Assembly (NCBI RefSeq): GCF_020177055.1
Contig: NZ_JAIQXT010000008.1
Location: forward strand, 62,001 to 126,000
DNA: 64,000 bases
Direction of reading: 5' to 3'
Source: Sphingomonas sp. R647
Lineage (GTDB): Bacteria; Pseudomonadota; Alphaproteobacteria; Sphingomonadales; Sphingomonadaceae
Part shown: positions 7,616 to 13,758 of the stretch, piece after piece
How the letters are laid out: each line of letters opens with the position of its first letter
Numbering within the stretch: the first letter of the stretch is position 1
Position numbers and translations under genes: made by a program
The notes under the pieces: model-generated
Told to the model about the DNA's origin: nothing
What the model saw: only the letters and a program-made list of their open reading frames with translations
Databases searched by the model: none

Positions 7616-7762
7616 TCAGGACAGGAAGCCGGCGTCGGTCACACCCGGGCCGCCGGCCTGGGTCAGTTCCTCGACCGCATATTCGGTGCAGGTCGGATCA
7701 GCCCATGCGGTGCGGGCGTCATGGGTTTTGACCTCGCGCGGTGCGGTTACATGGTCAGACAT
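7616..7762 (-). CDS. Putative lasso peptide precursor 1 (48 aa)
   Basis: Starts at ATG 7760-7762 with GGAG eight bases upstream; stops with TGA at 7616-7618. The leader holds WADPTCTEYAVEELT (residues 20-34), nearly identical to precursor 2 (WADPxCTEYAVExLT). With Thr34 at the usual -2 position, the core is AGGPGVTDAGFLS. Ala1 and Asp8 would form an 8-residue macrolactam ring, and the last residue is Ser. The pattern [WY]xxP...T(-2)-x-Ala1 and the AG(G)PG core start resemble paeninodin (leader YSKP, core AGPGTSTPD), as I recall it. The ring and cleavage site are inferred. Confidence 0.75.
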   Translation of the reverse strand: MSDHVTAPREVKTHDARTAWADPTCTEYAVEELTQAGGPGVTDAGFLS

Positions 7763-7799
7763 TGGGATTCTCCAGTCCTGTGTAATTCAGTGGCTCTAA

Positions 7800-7814
7800 T
7801 GCCGTCTGACGGCA
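7800..7814 (-). other. Small perfect hairpin between the two precursor genes
   Basis: TGCCGTC-T-GACGGCA is a perfect 7-bp stem, 6 bases downstream of the precursor 2 stop. It has no T tract, so it is more likely a 3'-end stabiliser or processing site than a full terminator. Confidence 0.4.
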
Positions 7815-7820
7815 GCAATA

Positions 7821-7958
7821 TTACGATCCGGTGTTCCCATCGCCCGCACCGCCATTGAAGGCAGCAGTCAGCGTTTCGACGGCATATTCGGTGCAGACGG
7901 GATCGGCCCAGACGAGTGGAGCGGTCGGCGCATCGGGTTTGGCGGTGGCTTCGGACAT
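7821..7958 (-). CDS. Putative lasso peptide precursor 2 (45 aa)
   Basis: ATG 7956-7958 is preceded by TGGAGTTCTGTA and follows the cyclase gene by 92 bases. The leader motif WADPVCTEYAVETLT occupies residues 17-31. Taking Thr31 as position -2 gives the core AFNGGAGDGNTGS: Ala1, Asp8, 13 residues, C-terminal Ser. The same spacing as precursor 1 supports the cleavage model. The leaders before the motif and the cores differ, so this is an old duplication and not a recent copy. Confidence 0.75.
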   Translation of the reverse strand: MSEATAKPDAPTAPLVWADPVCTEYAVETLTAAFNGGAGDGNTGS

Positions 7959-8050
7959 TACAGAACTCCAGTCGTTGCGTTATTCAGTCCCTACACGAAC
8001 ACCCATTATGGTCAACGACCGCGCGGCGACATGAAGGCGTACCGCGCGGT

Positions 8051-9988
8051 TCAGTCGTTGCGGCGTTGCGCCTTGCGGATGAAGTGCGCGACCGAGGTGC
8101 CGCGCAAAAGCTTGATCCGCTGGTCATAACGCTGGGCGTCGGTGACCCGGCCGGTGCCGGTATCGGCGGCGGCAAGCGCGCGCAGGGCCGGCACGGCGAG
8201 CATGGTTTCGGCGGTGGGACTGGCGCGGTCGAGCTCGGCGGTGAGCGTGCCGCGCGCCTGTTCGAGCCGGGTCGGCCAGTCGGCACCCTGTAGCCCCTTG
8301 CCCGCCTGGCTGCGGATTTCGGGCGGGATCCGGTCGGCGAAGGCGCGGTGATAGATCCACCGCGTCTGGCCATCGCGCAGCAGCAGATGCGGCGGAATGG
8401 CGAGGGTGAGGTCGATCACGCGGCGGTCGCCGGTGGGATCGCGCTGATCGACGCCGAAGCGGGCGAGCTGACCCTTGGCGGTCAGGCCCATCACGTCGGT
8501 GTGGCGCAGGATGCTGACGGCGAGGGCGCGCGGGCTGCGCGGGCTGGGCAAATGCAGGCCGTGGCCGAGCTGTTCCAGATGCGCGCGATAGTCGGGGTTT
8601 TCGACCAGCGCGGGGTTGAGCGCGGCATAGGCGAGCAGGTCGCGCGGGGGGCTCTTGCCGCGGAACCGGCGGCGGAGCGCATCGAGCAGGTGCGGGGGGA
8701 GCAGTGCGCCGATCGCGGAGGAGGCGACGCGCTGCGCCGTCCACCCGCGCCGGTGGAGCGCGATGCCCTCACGGATCAGGGTGGGCCAGGCGCCGGTGGT
8801 GGCGAGGAGGGGCAGCCGTTCGACCCCCTGCTGGCTGATCGTGGCGTTGCCCATGATGCCGACCAGCATCACGCGTTCGCGCCGCTGCTGCATCTGGCGG
8901 CAGATTTCGGTCATCCAGACCTGGTTGCACAGGTTGAAGGGGGGGTATTCGGCGGCGTGGAACTGGGTGTCCATGTCGTCGCCGATCTGGCGGTCGGCGG
9001 CGTCGACGCGGACGTGATCGATATTGGCGTGACGCGCGGCGAGCAGGGCGGCGAGCGGGCCTTCGTCGAGCGTGCGGTCGCCCCAATGATCGAGGCGTGC
9101 GCCGGCGAGCGGGATATGGGTGTAGGCGGAGAGGCGCTGGTTGCGCTGGGCGAGTTGGAGCGCGGCGGCGGCGGTGACGGCGCTGCTGTCCATCCCGCCG
9201 CTGAGATGGCTGCCGACCGGATCGTCGCTGCGCAGGCAGGCGGCGACGGCGGTGTCGAAGGTCGCGCGCAGGGCTTGGACGAAATCGTCGTCGCTGCGCA
9301 GGCCGGGGTCGCGGGGGGTGTCCCAGTCGTACCAGCCGACGGCTTCGATCCGGCCGTCGGCGTGGACGGTGACGCGCTGGCCCGGTTCGACGCGGTTGAT
9401 ATCGGCGAAGAAGCTGCGCGGGCCGCGGCGGGGGGCGAGCGCGATACAGTCCATCAGCGTGAACGGATCGGGCGCGACCGGAATGTCGGGGAGGGCGTGG
9501 AGCCCCTTTGCCATGGTCGCGAATGCGAACCGGTCGTTGCTCGTGTGGTAGAAGAGCGGGCGGTTGCCGAGGATATCGCGGACCAGATGCAAACGGCGAT
9601 GCTCAGCGTCCCACAGTGCAAAGGCGAAGTCGCCGATCAGCCGGTCGGGGGTGTCTGTGTCCCAGCGCTCCCATGCTGCCAGCAACAGGTCGGCGTCGGC
9701 GAGGGTGGGCAGCCGCTCGATCAGGCCGAGTGCTTCGCCAAGCTCGGCGCGGTTGTCGAGACGCAGGTCGGCGACGAGGTGGAAGCGGTCGCGCGCGGCG
9801 AGCGGCTGGCGGTCGAAGCGGTCCTCCGGCAACAGCCGGGCGATGCCGATGCCGAGTGCGATCGCGCCATCGTCCCACGTGCCCGCTCGGTCATTGCCAT
9901 AGGGCAGTAGCGCGCGGCGCATGCGGGCAACGTCCTGCGCGGCATCGGTTCGCCCGTCGCGGTTCCAGATGCCGCAGATCGCGGTCAT
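8051..9988 (-). CDS. Asparagine-synthetase-like protein, probable lasso macrolactam synthetase (C protein)
   Basis: 645 residues. An N-terminal glutaminase-like domain (MTAICGIWNRDGR, DLRLDNRAEL, LIGDFAFALWD, GNRPLFY) is followed by an ATP-pyrophosphatase domain with the PP-loop SGGMDSS at 263-269. Catalytic asparagine synthetases expose Cys as residue 1. Here the Cys is residue 5, so the glutaminase is probably inactive, as in RiPP cyclases. Lasso C proteins activate the Asp/Glu side chain with ATP and join it to the core N-terminus. It overlaps the kinase gene by 4 bases (ATGA) and lies just before the two precursors. Confidence 0.85.
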   Translation of the reverse strand: MTAICGIWNRDGRTDAAQDVARMRRALLPYGNDRAGTWDDGAIALGIGIARLLPEDRFDRQPLAARDRFHLVADLRLDNRAELGEALGLIERLPTLADADLLLAAWERWDTDTPDRLIGDFAFALWDAEHRRLHLVRDILGNRPLFYHTSNDRFAFATMAKGLHALPDIPVAPDPFTLMDCIALAPRRGPRSFFADINRVEPGQRVTVHADGRIEAVGWYDWDTPRDPGLRSDDDFVQALRATFDTAVAACLRSDDPVGSHLSGGMDSSAVTAAAALQLAQRNQRLSAYTHIPLAGARLDHWGDRTLDEGPLAALLAARHANIDHVRVDAADRQIGDDMDTQFHAAEYPPFNLCNQVWMTEICRQMQQRRERVMLVGIMGNATISQQGVERLPLLATTGAWPTLIREGIALHRRGWTAQRVASSAIGALLPPHLLDALRRRFRGKSPPRDLLAYAALNPALVENPDYRAHLEQLGHGLHLPSPRSPRALAVSILRHTDVMGLTAKGQLARFGVDQRDPTGDRRVIDLTLAIPPHLLLRDGQTRWIYHRAFADRIPPEIRSQAGKGLQGADWPTRLEQARGTLTAELDRASPTAETMLAVPALRALAAADTGTGRVTDAQRYDQRIKLLRGTSVAHFIRKAQRRND

Positions 9989-10905
9989 CCCTCGCCGCCC
10001 AGGCTGAGGACGAGGTCGATCAGCGCATCGAACTGGTCGAAGTCCATTGGGCGGGCGACGCGATAGACCGGTACCTGCGCGGCGATGGCGGCGGCGTGTT
10101 GCAGCATCGCGCCACCGCGCCCGGCGGCGCTGGCGACCTCCCCATAATGGGTCAGGCGGGAGAGCACGGCGGTTGCTTCGCCTCGGGTGAAGCGGCGCGC
10201 TTCGGGTGCGGTCAGCTCAGGCGTCGGGGCGAGCACGAGCAGCAGGTCGAGCGGTTGCGGAGCATCGAGGAAGCTGGTGCCGAGGTCGATGTGGAACTTG
10301 TCGAAGCCATCCTTGACCCGCGCGTCGTCGTCGGTCGGCACCGCGAGCTGTTCGGCACTGGCCGCCCAGAGCTTGGCGGAGGGATAGGCGGGGTAGGCGA
10401 GGCGGGAGGCGGGGTCGATCAGCAGCTGATCGTCGCTGAGCAGCCGGGCACCGCGCTGGACCAGCGCGTGAACCATGGTCGATTTGCCGGCCCCGCTATT
10501 GCCGGCGATGCCGATGGTGCGCCCGTCGAGCGACACGGCACCGGCATGAAGCGGTGGGCGGCCGCGCTGATGCGCCAGCATCGTAAAGGCCGGGCCGAAC
10601 AGGAAGGTGTGGACTTCCGCTGCGCTGAGGTGGTCGTCGTCCGCGACAATGATCGCGCGCCCGTCGCGGATGCGCAGCCGTGAGCCGCCCGGCGGGTGGA
10701 GGTCGATCAGGTCGGGGCCATGGATCGTGAACGGGCCGACCGTCCGGGTCGGAGCGGCGGGCGGATCGAATGCGCCGAAGGTGATCTCGATCGGGTCCGG
10801 TCGCTCAGGACCGACATCGGGGGCCAGATAGGGCAGCGGGCGCGGGGAGCGGACACTCCATCCGCCGACGTGGTAGCGGTGCATCGTCATGCGGCGCCGT
10901 GCCAC
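9985..10905 (-). CDS. HPr-kinase-like protein, probable lasso peptide serine kinase
   Basis: 306 residues. An N-terminal roughly 115-residue part is followed by a kinase core: PLHAGAVSL, Walker A GNSGAGKST (135-143) and LLSDDQ (D158-159), as in HPr kinase/phosphorylase. It lacks the HPrK phosphorylase signature, and no HPr gene is nearby. In paeninodin-type clusters a kinase of this family phosphorylates the C-terminal Ser of the precursor, and both precursors here end in Ser. Start ATG 10905 is 8 bases after the RRE gene; ATG 10890 and 10884 are alternatives, and none has a clear ribosome site. Confidence 0.8.
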   Translation of the reverse strand: MARRRMTMHRYHVGGWSVRSPRPLPYLAPDVGPERPDPIEITFGAFDPPAAPTRTVGPFTIHGPDLIDLHPPGGSRLRIRDGRAIIVADDDHLSAAEVHTFLFGPAFTMLAHQRGRPPLHAGAVSLDGRTIGIAGNSGAGKSTMVHALVQRGARLLSDDQLLIDPASRLAYPAYPSAKLWAASAEQLAVPTDDDARVKDGFDKFHIDLGTSFLDAPQPLDLLLVLAPTPELTAPEARRFTRGEATAVLSRLTHYGEVASAAGRGGAMLQHAAAIAAQVPVYRVARPMDFDQFDALIDLVLSLGGEG

Positions 10906-10912
10906 GGCGCGG

Positions 10913-11203
10913 TCATGCGTCCCGTACCTCGATCAGCCCTTTTTCCGCGAGGTGCGTCAGGAAGGTCAGCACGCTCGATTGGATCCGGTCGAGCGGAGCA
11001 TCATAGGCCGTCGTGAGATCGGCACACAGCGCATCCACCTGACGCGGCTGCGCAATGCGGGTCCAGATGTCGGACCCGATGGAATCGAATTCGAAATAAC
11101 GGCCAGACTGAATGTCGAGCAGGACCGCACTCTCGTCGAGCGAGGCGGCGAAAACTGCCGGGCTCACGACAACCCATTGATCGATACGGACGTTCACACG
11201 CAT
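10913..11203 (-). CDS. PqqD-like RiPP recognition element protein (B1-type)
   Basis: 96 residues. The PqqD fold pattern is visible: VVVSPAVFAASLDESAVLLDIQSGRYFEFDSIGSDIW, then a helical half with VDALCADLTTAYDAP and VLTFLTHLAEKGLIEV. Such stand-alone RREs (B1 in lasso clusters) bind the leader and present the precursor to the protease and cyclase. ATG 11203 follows AAGG. It is separated by 75 bp from the upstream dioxygenase gene and by 7 bases from the kinase gene, so these probably form one transcript. Confidence 0.85.
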   Translation of the reverse strand: MRVNVRIDQWVVVSPAVFAASLDESAVLLDIQSGRYFEFDSIGSDIWTRIAQPRQVDALCADLTTAYDAPLDRIQSSVLTFLTHLAEKGLIEVRDA

Positions 11204-11278
11204 ACCTTGTAAGACCGCACGGACCGGTGTGCCGACGCCCGGATAGAAATGGCGGCCGCAAGATGCAACCGGCGCGCG

Positions 11279-12073
11279 TCAGCGCTCGAGAATATCCGCC
11301 CGGCTGAACCGCGCCTGCCAGCGTGGTTTCCACCCCGCAAAAACCTCCTGCGAGACTTTGAGCTTGCGATAGTTCGTCGCTTCGGGCGGTTCGATTTCGA
11401 CCCACCATTCGCGGCTGAGTGCGGTGAAGAGCACCGGGCGCGGGGTGGTGCCGTGATTGGCGAGGCCGGTATGGTAGATGCGATAGTCCCACAGGATCGC
11501 GCTGCCCGGATGGACGATGGGGGCGAGGTCGTGCGGGGTGTCGGGCGCGTTGGTCGCGCCGGAGCGGTGGCTGCCGCGCCAGAAGGCGGTGCGGCCGCTG
11601 GTTTCGTCCATGGTGACGAGTGGGACGGCAAAGGCTAGGGCGAAGGGGGGCAGGAGGCGGTCGAGCCCTTCGCGCGGATAGAGCCAGGCGTCTCGGTGCG
11701 CGGTCTGATTGGGCGCGCCGGGGACTGCGACGAGCAGGCCGACCGAGTCGACCTTGAATGCTTCGGCAAGCAACTCGGTTGCAATGTGTGCGACGGGCTT
11801 GGGCAGCAGGATCGCGGGATCGGCGAGCGCGCCATCGACCAGCAGCGGGATCGTGTGGCGGCCGACATAGGGGCCGAAATATTTGCTGCGGTCGGGCTCT
11901 GCCATGTCGGGGTGACGCGCGGTGATCTCGGCGCTGCAGGTGGCGAGGAGCGCAGGGTCGATCAGGTCGTCGAGCACCACCACGCCGTCGCGGCGCAGGA
12001 TGCCAATCGCCGCGGTTACCGCGGCGCTCCGGTCGGTGCCGGGCGCGAAGGATACGCGGTTGTCGCTGCTCAT
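11279..12073 (-). CDS. Phytanoyl-CoA dioxygenase (PhyH) family Fe(II)/2-oxoglutarate oxygenase
   Basis: 264 residues from ATG 12073, which has a strong GGGGAA ribosome site; the frame is open 90 bases further upstream but without family similarity. The metal triad is visible: HRD (His126, Asp128) and His201, with Arg212 as the 2-oxoglutarate partner (HTGLANHGTTPRP). These enzymes hydroxylate or otherwise oxidise small molecules or peptides. Position and strand make it a candidate tailoring enzyme of the lasso-type operon, but it could be an unrelated neighbour. Confidence 0.85.
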   Translation of the reverse strand: MSSDNRVSFAPGTDRSAAVTAAIGILRRDGVVVLDDLIDPALLATCSAEITARHPDMAEPDRSKYFGPYVGRHTIPLLVDGALADPAILLPKPVAHIATELLAEAFKVDSVGLLVAVPGAPNQTAHRDAWLYPREGLDRLLPPFALAFAVPLVTMDETSGRTAFWRGSHRSGATNAPDTPHDLAPIVHPGSAILWDYRIYHTGLANHGTTPRPVLFTALSREWWVEIEPPEATNYRKLKVSQEVFAGWKPRWQARFSRADILER

Positions 12074-12137: not shown

Positions 12138-12650
12138 TCAGGTGAGAAAGGGGCGCAGCGCAAGCCAGGGGGGGAGCTTGGCAGGTAGGCCGACGGTGTG
12201 GAGCGGGCTGGAGGAAGGGAGGGCGAGGATCGTCCAGGGCGATGCCTGTGTGCCGAGCTGGCGCAGGCCGAGCCGGTGGGCGGTCGCGCCGTTGAAGGCG
12301 ATGGCGCGCAGGTCGGGCAGGGTGGCGGCGAGGGTGGCGAGGTCGTTGGGTTCGGCCTGCGCGATGGCAGCGTCGCTGCTGCCCGGTCGCGTGGCGCTGG
12401 CGACCGCGTCCCACAGGCCGATGCGGGCGTCGCGCAGGGCGGCGAGGCGGGCTTCGTAGGGCAGGGTGGGGAGGTCGTCGCGCGCGATGACGGCGGCGAT
12501 CAGGCGCCAGAACTGGTTCTGCGGGTGCGCGTAATATTGCCGCGCGGCGAGGCTGCGGTCGCCGGGCAGGCTGCCGCAGACGAGCACGCGGGTGCGGGCG
12601 TCGGTGACCGGCGCGAAGCTGGCCTTGCGGGGTGGAGCGGGGTGCGACAC
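12138..12650 (-). CDS. Uracil/hypoxanthine-DNA glycosylase superfamily protein (DNA-deoxyinosine glycosylase type)
   Basis: 170 residues. The UDG-superfamily motif A appears as VLVCGSLPGDRSLAARQYYAHPQNQFW, followed by GLWDAV, ATRPGSSDAAIAQAEPND and the C-terminal LPSSSPLHT motif. The GSxP...YYxHPxNxFW form is that of family 6 (HDG) enzymes, which remove hypoxanthine from DNA. The start is ATG 12650. It sits 64 bases upstream of the dioxygenase on the same strand and is otherwise unlinked to it. Confidence 0.8.
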   Translation of the reverse strand: MSHPAPPRKASFAPVTDARTRVLVCGSLPGDRSLAARQYYAHPQNQFWRLIAAVIARDDLPTLPYEARLAALRDARIGLWDAVASATRPGSSDAAIAQAEPNDLATLAATLPDLRAIAFNGATAHRLGLRQLGTQASPWTILALPSSSPLHTVGLPAKLPPWLALRPFLT

Positions 12651-12765
12651 GGCGTGGCCCTTAGCATTCCAGCGGCGTCAGCGGGAGGGCGAGGCAAGCG
12701 TGTGGCGGTGCCCGCATAGTTTCGCTTGCTTGCGGGGCGGCGGGGGCAGTGCCTATGTTCCGGCC

Positions 12766-13758
12766 ATGAAGGTTGCACAGGATACCATCGCGCTGATCGG
12801 CAACACCCCGCTCGTCCGGCTGAAAGGGCCGAGCGAGGCCGCCGGGTGCGACATTTTCGGCAAGTGCGAATTCGCCAATCCCGGCGCGAGCGTGAAGGAT
12901 CGCGCGGCGCTGTTCATCGTCGAGGATGCCGAGGCGACGGGCCTGCTCCAGCCGGGCGGGACGATCGTCGAGGGAACGGCGGGGAATACCGGCATTGGCC
13001 TCGCGCTGGTCGCCAATGCCAAGGGCTACAAGACGATCATCGTCATGCCGGAGACGCAGAGCCGCGAGAAGATGGACACGCTGCGCGCTCTGGGCGCGGA
13101 GCTGGTGCTGGTGCCGGCCGCGCCCTATTCGAACCCCGGGCATTTCGTGCACACGTCGCGGCGCATCGCCGAGGAGACGCCGAACGCGATCTGGGCGAAC
13201 CAGTTCGACAATATCGCCAATCGCCGCGCGCATATCGTCGGGACCGCCGAGGAAATCTGGGCCCAGATGGAGGGGCGGATCGACGGCTTTACCTGTGCCG
13301 CCGGGACCGGCGGGACGATCGCGGGGGTTGGCCTTGGCCTCAAGGAAAAGGACGAGAAGGTCCGCATTGCGCTGTCGGACCCGCATGGCGCGGCGCTGTA
13401 CAACTATTACGCACATGGCGAGCTCAAGGCCGAAGGGTCGTCGGTGGCCGAGGGGATCGGGCAGGGGCGGATCACCGCGAACCTTGAGGGGGCGCCGATC
13501 GATACACAGTTCCGCATCGGCGACGATGAGGGGATGGAGTGGGTGCGTCGCCTGCTCGCCGAGGAAGGGCTGTGCCTGGGGCTGTCGTCGGGGATCAATG
13601 TCGCCGGCGCGGTGGCTCTGGGGCGCGAATTGGGGCCGGGGGCGCGGGTCGTGACGATCCTGTGCGATACGGGATTCCGTTATCTTTCAACGCTGTACAA
13701 TCCGGAGTGGCTGCGACTCAAGGGGCTGCAAGTGCCCGAGTGGCTTGATCGAAGCTAA
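12766..13758 (+). CDS. cysK: Cysteine synthase A (O-acetylserine sulfhydrylase)
   Basis: 330 residues, PLP fold type II. The cofactor lysine is in NPGASVKDRAAL, the substrate loop is EGTAGNTGIGLA, the phosphate-binding glycines are in AAGTGGTIAGVG, and the C-terminus carries LCDTGFRYLSTLYN. It makes cysteine from O-acetylserine and sulfide. Start ATG 12766. The frame is open upstream, antisense to the glycosylase gene, but that part is not CysK-like. Confidence 0.92.
   Translation: MKVAQDTIALIGNTPLVRLKGPSEAAGCDIFGKCEFANPGASVKDRAALFIVEDAEATGLLQPGGTIVEGTAGNTGIGLALVANAKGYKTIIVMPETQSREKMDTLRALGAELVLVPAAPYSNPGHFVHTSRRIAEETPNAIWANQFDNIANRRAHIVGTAEEIWAQMEGRIDGFTCAAGTGGTIAGVGLGLKEKDEKVRIALSDPHGAALYNYYAHGELKAEGSSVAEGIGQGRITANLEGAPIDTQFRIGDDEGMEWVRRLLAEEGLCLGLSSGINVAGAVALGRELGPGARVVTILCDTGFRYLSTLYNPEWLRLKGLQVPEWLDRS

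Follow-up and report, generated by a model that had tools for sequence, protein, structure and literature searches.

A predicted phosphorylated-lasso-type RiPP operon of Sphingomonas sp. R647 without a leader peptidase of its own

Gene content of the operon and its two precursors

The analyzed window (the whole stretch of 64,000 nucleotides from Sphingomonas sp. R647) contains an operon with the following genes and features:

7616..7762, minus strand: precursor 1 gene, 48 aa (ORF with a WxxP leader and relatives in genome G299, locus L112)
7694-7705: WxxP of precursor 1; 7619-7657: its predicted core, AGGPGVTDAGFLS
7821..7958, minus strand: precursor 2 gene, 45 aa (ORF with a WxxP leader)
7899-7910: WxxP of precursor 2; 7824-7862: its predicted core, AFNGGAGDGNTGS
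8051..9988, minus strand: AsnB-type lasso-cyclase-like protein, 645 aa (SGGMDS motif, no Cys2)
9985..10905, minus strand: HPr-kinase-like protein, predicted precursor Ser kinase (homology)
10913..11203, minus strand: PqqD-like RRE, predicted B1 leader-binding protein (domain and profile matches)
11279..12073, minus strand: PhyH-family dioxygenase, possible accessory tailoring enzyme (family match)

All six genes, from precursor 1 to PhyH, lie on one strand, and the kinase and cyclase genes share a 4-base overlap. ORF coordinates and family matches bear out the earlier note, which had placed PqqD-like, HPr-kinase-like, asparagine-synthetase-like and dioxygenase genes on the strand of two small ORFs; these do share WADPxCTEYAVExLT and have 13-residue cores with Ala1 and Asp8, as it described. 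A GACTGGAG stretch precedes the start codon of each precursor, and both precursors combine a WxxP leader, Thr(-2), Asp8 and a C-terminal Ser. The features expected of a lasso precursor, i.e., a leader motif, Thr(-2) and Asp or Glu at core positions 7-9, are thus found in both; Thr(-2) is reported to be recognized during processing, and ring closure to take place at positions 7-9 (PMC10368454). The C-terminal Ser, overlooked in the earlier note, fits the kinase, since several HPr-kinase homologs associated with lasso clusters phosphorylate their precursors at this residue.

When 295 genomes of the genus were searched with a degenerate DNA version of the leader motif, the only sites were two in the window genome and one in G299, a rarity that places the two small genes beyond chance. 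The G299 operon, from the same genus, has the order PqqD-HprK-AsnB-precursor-precursor, with tandem precursor cores AGGPGLTDSGVLS and AGGPGVTDGGIFS, including a core near-identical to that of the window. PhyH was not found at the G299 locus, where the gene order is otherwise the same, so this gene looks accessory and was rejected as a core part of the cassette. Between the W codon and the stop, precursor 1 and the G299 gene g2 have 12 mismatches at the 30 third positions and 7 at the 60 first and second positions, and the figures against g1 are 10 of 30 and 10 of 60; with mismatches concentrated at third positions, the substitutions are of the coding type. Precursor 2 is more divergent from G299 (13-14 of 30 third and 19-23 of 60 first-plus-second positions), and its signal is less clear. 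The two small genes are real and are conserved in the same-genus ortholog.

Cyclase, leader-binding protein and kinase

The best NCBIfam match of the cyclase is lass_lactam_cya (277 bits, below the cut-off of 525), and its score against the asparagine synthase model TIGR01536 is 175 bits, also under the cut-off (267). The protein begins with MTAI, lacks the glutaminase Cys2 and retains SGGMDS, and it is 80% identical to the G299 cyclase over 634 columns. A primary asparagine synthetase was ruled out by the TIGR01536 score, the lack of Cys2 and the presence in the host genome of three other proteins that pass the primary asparagine-synthetase test.

The RRE matches PF05402 with 64 bits. Searched alone, it scores 61.7 bits against lasso_PqqD_Bac (NCBIfam cut-off, 80) and 24 bits against PQQ_PqqD (cut-off, 46), while a profile built from 24 RREs of relatives has the lasso RRE TbiB1 as its best solved relative, with 85 bits vs 30 for PqqD. 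By these scores, the protein is predicted to be an RRE of the lasso type (B1), as found in lasso clusters. That the PqqD-like RRE guides a PqqA-like product, or another RiPP of the radical-SAM type, is hardly credible; the earlier note had left room for another RRE-guided RiPP class. The similarity of WxxP to the PqqA motif, pointed out in that note, speaks for a PqqA-like product, but the RRE scores favor the lasso type and the RRE is encoded beside a cyclase and a kinase.

Across 18 kinase homologs, three residues never vary (H120, K141 and D159), and a fourth, D158, is conserved in at least 90%; we map these four to the His-Lys-Asp-Asp motif described for lasso kinases (PMC9266682). With the motif residues present and both precursors ending in Ser, the protein is a predicted kinase of the lasso-associated HPr-kinase type. 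The substrate of PadeK-type kinases is given as the C-terminal Ser (PMC8498205), while BsfK, a lasso kinase of the same group, is reported to phosphorylate Ser3 and not the last residue (PMC10368454).

B2 protease and precursors in the host genome and in related cassettes

The leader protease B2, expected inside a lasso cluster, was found neither in the operon nor in the window by a B2 profile search. Its absence had escaped the earlier note, although B2 is a defining lasso enzyme. Over the whole host genome, PF13471 gave two matches above the cut-off, both on other contigs; a B2 hidden beside the operon was thus ruled out. One of them is the stand-alone B2 of locus L015 (G000:C9:31330), which sits inside its own cassette and perhaps works only there. 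The other (L016) has 250 aa and is, judged from this length, apparently fused to an RRE, with no match of the RRE profile on this protein. Of the 13 lasso-type cyclase loci in the host genome, 11 have no B2 nearby. Candidate precursors were present at 8 of these 11 and were not found at the two loci of L017 or at L025; the Thr(-2)/Asp8 arrangement occurs only in the window, L019 and L021.

The arrangement recurs in related cassettes. The precursor lists were filtered by rule, leaving out ORFs that lack a terminal Ser or W..P, are rich in R/H/C or overlap core genes; doubtful ORFs remain (e.g., L168 and L045 923-1096). In these lists, 22 of the 35 precursors from B2-less stretches have Thr(-2) together with Asp/Glu8, vs 5.2 in shuffles. 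L118 (on a contig shared with L034) and L059 were skipped, L065 was removed as a duplicate of L155, and at loci on contig ends B2 possibly lies outside the stretch. After thinning of relatives, the count was 13 of 25 vs 3.5 in shuffles, and the Asp/Glu signal after Thr(-2) peaks at core position 8. The 19 precursors from B2-containing stretches showed no enrichment at position 8 (3 vs 2.7) and 11 vs 6.0 at positions 7-9. Core residue 1 is not Gly, the usual first residue of lasso cores, in 19 of the 23 members of the ring-8 set (one duplicate within the set); the non-Gly residues are A, N, T, Q, F, H and S.

Among the candidates scored, whose number per genome was capped, B2 occurs in 29 of 29 kinase-positive vs 32 of 92 kinase-negative genomes of the genus sample, and in 20 of 21 vs 19 of 271 genomes of the class sample (at most 7 kinase and 14 B2 candidates per genome); the counts ignore relatedness and do not set apart cassettes that have a local B2. 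A close cyclase homolog (E<=1e-50) is present in 18 of 121 genus genomes, all 18 with B2; by coordinates, B2 adjoins the homolog in ten of them and does not in eight. Of the 47 B2 stretches fetched, 18 have the protease gene without a cyclase, RRE or kinase around it, and some lone B2 genes occupy shared genomic places; the catalytic-His motif was not found by pattern in those of Ancylobacter (L171, L172). Outside the genus, B2 stands beside an RRE, kinase or cyclase, i.e., in another cassette, in 11 of 17 fetched stretches. Nearly all sampled genomes with B2-less cassettes have B2 elsewhere, according to the genus and class samples and to a check covering 19 loci out of 34 that lack an intact B2 (in two of the 34 it is broken, and RRE and kinase are not both in the stretch for all 19). 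No PF13471 match was found in three genomes with a cyclase-RRE-kinase cassette, namely Novispirillum (L048), the MAG of L088 and G330. In a quick cyclase tree, computed without L146, L142, L152 and L155 and with L045 and L047, whose B2 is broken, labeled B2-positive, the window cyclase falls in a 15-row clade containing five B2-linked loci, and at least eight changes of the local-B2 label are needed. The B2-less loci and these repeated changes rule out a local B2 as a general rule.

Proposed maturation and known systems

The operon is probably a phosphorylated-lasso-type RiPP cassette that lacks its own leader peptidase and relies on an unlinked B2 acting in trans. Of the two Ala1-Asp8 lasso peptides proposed earlier, the lasso type is supported by the cyclase score, the RRE profile and the precursor signature; the defining B2 is missing from the operon. 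In the pathway that we infer from gene content, the PqqD-like RRE would bind the WxxP leader and the HPr-kinase homolog would phosphorylate the C-terminal Ser of the linear precursor. B2 from elsewhere, most likely the stand-alone protein of L015, would dock on the RRE and cut after Thr(-2)-x; the AsnB-type cyclase would then activate Asp8 and join it to Ala1 in an 8-residue ring, with the last five residues as a tail that could thread the ring. PhyH could hydroxylate the product. Calculated monoisotopic masses of the expected products are 1129.54 for core 1 and 1105.44 for core 2, and phosphorylation would add 79.97 (1209.51 and 1185.41).

It is unlikely, but to be reckoned with, that the cyclase makes an unthreaded macrolactam or other amide, the operon belonging to a separate RiPP class that shares the RRE, the kinase and the AsnB-type enzyme. 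The mostly non-Gly first core residue and the sub-threshold cyclase score are in line with this, as are the 13-residue cores, which leave five residues past the ring, 15-24 being quoted as normal for lasso peptides (PMC11006600); but several of the closest cyclase relatives lie in B2-containing loci, and the Asp8 spacing is that of lasso rings. A lasso-type product that loses its leader to some unrelated protease with a housekeeping role, or that matures without B2, is rather improbable. The three cassette-bearing genomes without detected B2 agree with such maturation, and pseudomycoidin forms without a leader and leader peptidase, according to a title cited in PMC9266682; however, Thr(-2), the processing element, is kept in the precursors of B2-less stretches, and B2 is encoded elsewhere in nearly all sampled cassette genomes. 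Loss of B2 from a decaying, non-functional lasso cluster is very improbable: the broken B2 genes of L045 and L047 illustrate such decay, but the window operon has open reading frames, and its G299 ortholog still has the RRE, the cyclase, the kinase and both precursors; the substitutions in precursor 1 are of the coding type.

Taking B2 action in trans as the preferred reading, we lean slightly towards a hub-and-spoke organization, in which many precursor-RRE-kinase-cyclase cassettes scattered over one genome depend on a single unlinked B2 (up to 11 B2-less ones in this host); by losing the local B2 repeatedly, alphaproteobacterial families would have come to share this layout. Mining rules that demand B2 beside the cyclase skip such cassettes and would miss 11 of the 13 lasso-type loci of the host genome. 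A B2 able to act with many RREs would be a plug-in leader protease with natural promiscuity, of use in combinatorial work, and would open the specificity of RRE-B2 pairs to direct tests. The mostly non-Gly residue 1, if confirmed, would mean a wider ring chemistry. No B2-less lasso cassettes or B2 acting in trans were found in titles and abstract openings, a search outside which the subscription literature lies and which does not establish absence from print.

The systems of paeninodin PadeK, SyanK (Sphingobium yanoikuyae) and BsfK are described as combining an AsnB-type cyclase with an HPr-kinase homolog, as in the window, and a separate RRE (B1) is common to the pade and bsf clusters and the window. 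C-terminal Ser is the described substrate of PadeK and SyanK and the predicted one here, whereas BsfK differs (Ser3). According to PMC10368454, these systems own B2 proteins, unlike the window cassette, which also differs in its two tandem precursors and predicted 13-residue cores. The genus also has lasso clusters whose long B protein is apparently fused to an RRE (L016 in the host genome). They share the AsnB-type cyclase superfamily with the window operon, which differs in having its RRE as a separate protein, in its kinase and in the absence of B2. Isopeptidase and receptor genes are typical of L016-type clusters. A parallel in logic is provided by lanthipeptides with unclustered proteases, as presented in PMC8960859: there, as proposed here, a RiPP cluster without a protease is linked by co-occurrence to a distant maturing protease, although the RiPP class is another one and the candidate protease of the window is the class-specific B2.

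The operon and its enzymes

The operon under study (7616-12073, minus strand) is real, is kept in a second genome of the genus (G299), and is without a gene for the lasso leader protease B2 (PF13471). The minus-strand gene order is PhyH, PqqD-like (the predicted leader-binding RRE, B1), HprK-like (the predicted kinase), AsnB-like (the predicted cyclase), precursor 2 and precursor 1:

11279-12073, minus strand, PhyH (PhyH family scan, 45.0 bits)
10913-11203, minus strand, PqqD-like (PqqD family scan, 63.8 bits)
9985-10905, minus strand, HprK-like (Hpr_kinase_C, 27.7 bits, below the cut-off of 33.3)
8051-9988, minus strand, AsnB-like (Asn_synthase and GATase_7 family matches)
7821-7958, minus strand, precursor 2
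7616-7762, minus strand, precursor 1

The two small open reading frames (ORFs) claimed in the earlier note are present at these positions; neither precursor matches an NCBIfam model, and both end in Ser. At their junction the kinase and cyclase genes share 4 bases. The best NCBIfam match of the cyclase-like protein is the lasso-cyclase model (277 bits, cut-off 525), and the protein contains SGGMDS and lacks Cys2. Its assignment to asparagine synthase was rejected (175 bits vs. a cut-off of 267); three other proteins of the host genome (L023, L024 and L026), which start with MCG, are above the asparagine-synthase cut-off. An RRE profile built from 24 sequences scored TbiB1, a lasso RRE of solved structure, at 85 bits vs. 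30 bits for PqqD. Among 18 kinase homologs, H120, K141 and D159 are invariant and D158 is conserved in at least 90%, and we mapped these residues onto the His-Lys-Asp-Asp motif described for lasso kinases (PMC9266682). A review (PMC8498205) describes PadeK and SyanK as acting on the linear precursor and phosphorylating its C-terminal Ser, unlike BsfK, reported to phosphorylate Ser3 (PMC10368454). The window operon is predicted to be a new variant of the phosphorylated lasso-type cassettes.

At two other loci the RRE and the kinase flank a presumably sulfotransferase-like gene, marked by the residues YPKSGNTWFR (L130, 8904-9824, and L135, 6474-7418). PhyH-like genes were also seen 0.8-1.3 kb from the long B gene of lasso-type loci in several genomes of the genus (L016, 11458-12405; L141, L148, L149, L150 and L151), as weak matches to our PhyH profile (18-32 bits), and in a B2-bearing lasso-type locus of Erythrobacter donghaensis (L069, 11259-12248; 461 bits, iterated profile).

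Conservation and signature of the precursors

A degenerate leader-motif pattern, applied to 295 genomes of the genus, matched twice in the window genome and once in G299. The G299 locus (L112) contains PqqD, HprK, a cyclase 80% identical to that of the window over 634 columns, and two tandem precursors, whose C-termini read DELTA|AGGPGLTDSGVLS and DELTA|AGGPGVTDGGIFS, with the bar before the predicted core; neither a PhyH nor a B2 match was found there. Substitutions between window precursor 1 and the G299 precursors are densest at third codon positions (12/30 vs. 7/60 other positions for one G299 precursor, 10/30 vs. 10/60 for the other); for window precursor 2 the third-position contrast is weak. 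Precursor cores of Ancylobacter loci include AGGPGTTDSTILS and AGAPGGPDSTILS, and a G281 precursor has the core AGAPGVVDSGIFS with Val at -2.

The signature was assessed in 35 Ser-ending W..P ORFs from stretches that contain cassette genes but gave no B2 match. Thr(-2) together with Asp/Glu8 of the core occurs in 22 of them vs. 5.2 in shuffles (p 0.0002, the floor of 5000 shuffles), and in 13 of 25 vs. 3.5 expected when relatives were thinned; Asp/Glu at other core positions gave 1-7. In 19 ORFs from stretches with a B2 match, position 8 is not in excess (3 vs. 2.7), while positions 7-9 are (11 vs. 6.0, p 0.007). Thr(-2), to which a role in recognition during processing has been ascribed (PMC10368454), is kept, and its retention argues that B2 would still act on precursors of cassettes without B2. 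Two cassettes similar to each other, at L027 and L028, have WVKPEI precursors (12591-12746 and 13201-13350, respectively), with a C-terminus other than Ser and without the Asp8 spacing.

Distribution and evolution of B2

In the whole host genome, PF13471 gave two matches above the cut-off (C9:31330 and C1:203453), none of them on the window's contig. Searches and profiles revealed 16 AsnB-type loci; three, being true synthases or amidotransferases, were set aside, leaving 13 lasso-type loci, five of which (both of L017, L019, L020 and L021, the last at a contig edge) were so classed by adjoining PqqD and HprK matches, not by NCBIfam. At 11 of the 13, B2 is absent from the fetched stretch and PqqD and HprK are present. 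L017 (8135-16992) holds a tandem pair of cyclase-kinase-RRE cassettes, in which a precursor was looked for and not found.

Among the matches listed for 121 genomes of the genus, B2 occurs in 61 and the kinase profile in 29; B2 is present in 29/29 kinase-positive vs. 32/92 other genomes (Fisher p 4.5e-11, kinship ignored), and stand-alone B2, by our own criterion a match whose open frame is no longer than 206 aa, in 18/29 vs. 2/92 (kinship ignored). All 18 genomes of this sample with a close cyclase homolog (E<=1e-50) have B2, which by coordinates adjoins that cyclase in 10 and lies apart in 8. In a class sample of 292 genomes, including the window genome and one more member of the genus, the kinase was found in 21 and B2 in 39 (among the matches listed), with B2 in 20/21 kinase-positive vs. 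19/271 others (kinship ignored). Of 34 loci without intact local B2, 19 were checked; they come from 18 genomes, 16 of which have B2 somewhere; at L058 and L104 it is on the same contig as the cassette, 8-14 kb off. The two exceptions, with no B2 detected, are Novispirillum (L048) and the L088 MAG; G330, which carries the cyclase-RRE-kinase cassette L196, gave no B2 match either.

A lone B2, in a stretch without cyclase, RRE or kinase, was found in 18 of 47 fetched B2 stretches, a chosen and not a random set.

Stretches with a lone B2
Genus stretches, 8/26: L132, L133, L134, L136, L137, L138, L139, L143
Further stretches, 6/17: L169, L171, L172, L174, L176, L184
Other families, 4/4: L186, L191, L192, L193

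L143 is from G196. In 11 of the 17 further stretches B2 adjoins an RRE, kinase or cyclase. With 71-83 bits, the three lone B2 scanned (L132, L134 and L136) exceed the cut-off of NCBIfam lasso_biosyn_B2. L132, L137 and L138 share about 9.6-14.4 kb of summed aligned flanking DNA with one another and 5.1-9.0 kb with L143; for the pair L133 and L134 the sum is 13.6 kb. The gene next to B2 in G299, which we take from its sequence to be hemA, is 95% identical to one in L015, a B2 locus of the window genome, where a cassette is interposed between B2 and this shared neighbor.

In a quick tree built from 60 cyclases, 10 changes of the local-B2 label are required, and well-supported branches force at least eight of them. 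The cyclases of the window and of G299 form a group (support 100) within a 15-row clade that includes five B2-linked loci (support 97). The B2 gene is broken at L045 (4079-4713) and L047 (9994-10344), in both cases adjoining a cyclase, kinase and RRE cassette, and each genome has another B2 match.

Supply of the B2 step

An unlinked protease probably supplies the B2 step for the window operon. Among the paeninodin proteins, leader binding is described for PadeB1, on which PadeB2 depends, and B proteins are functional both split and fused (PMC5067487); B2 acting in trans is therefore plausible. The candidate unlinked B2 may be compared with lanthipeptides, for which unclustered proteases have been reported (PMC8960859).
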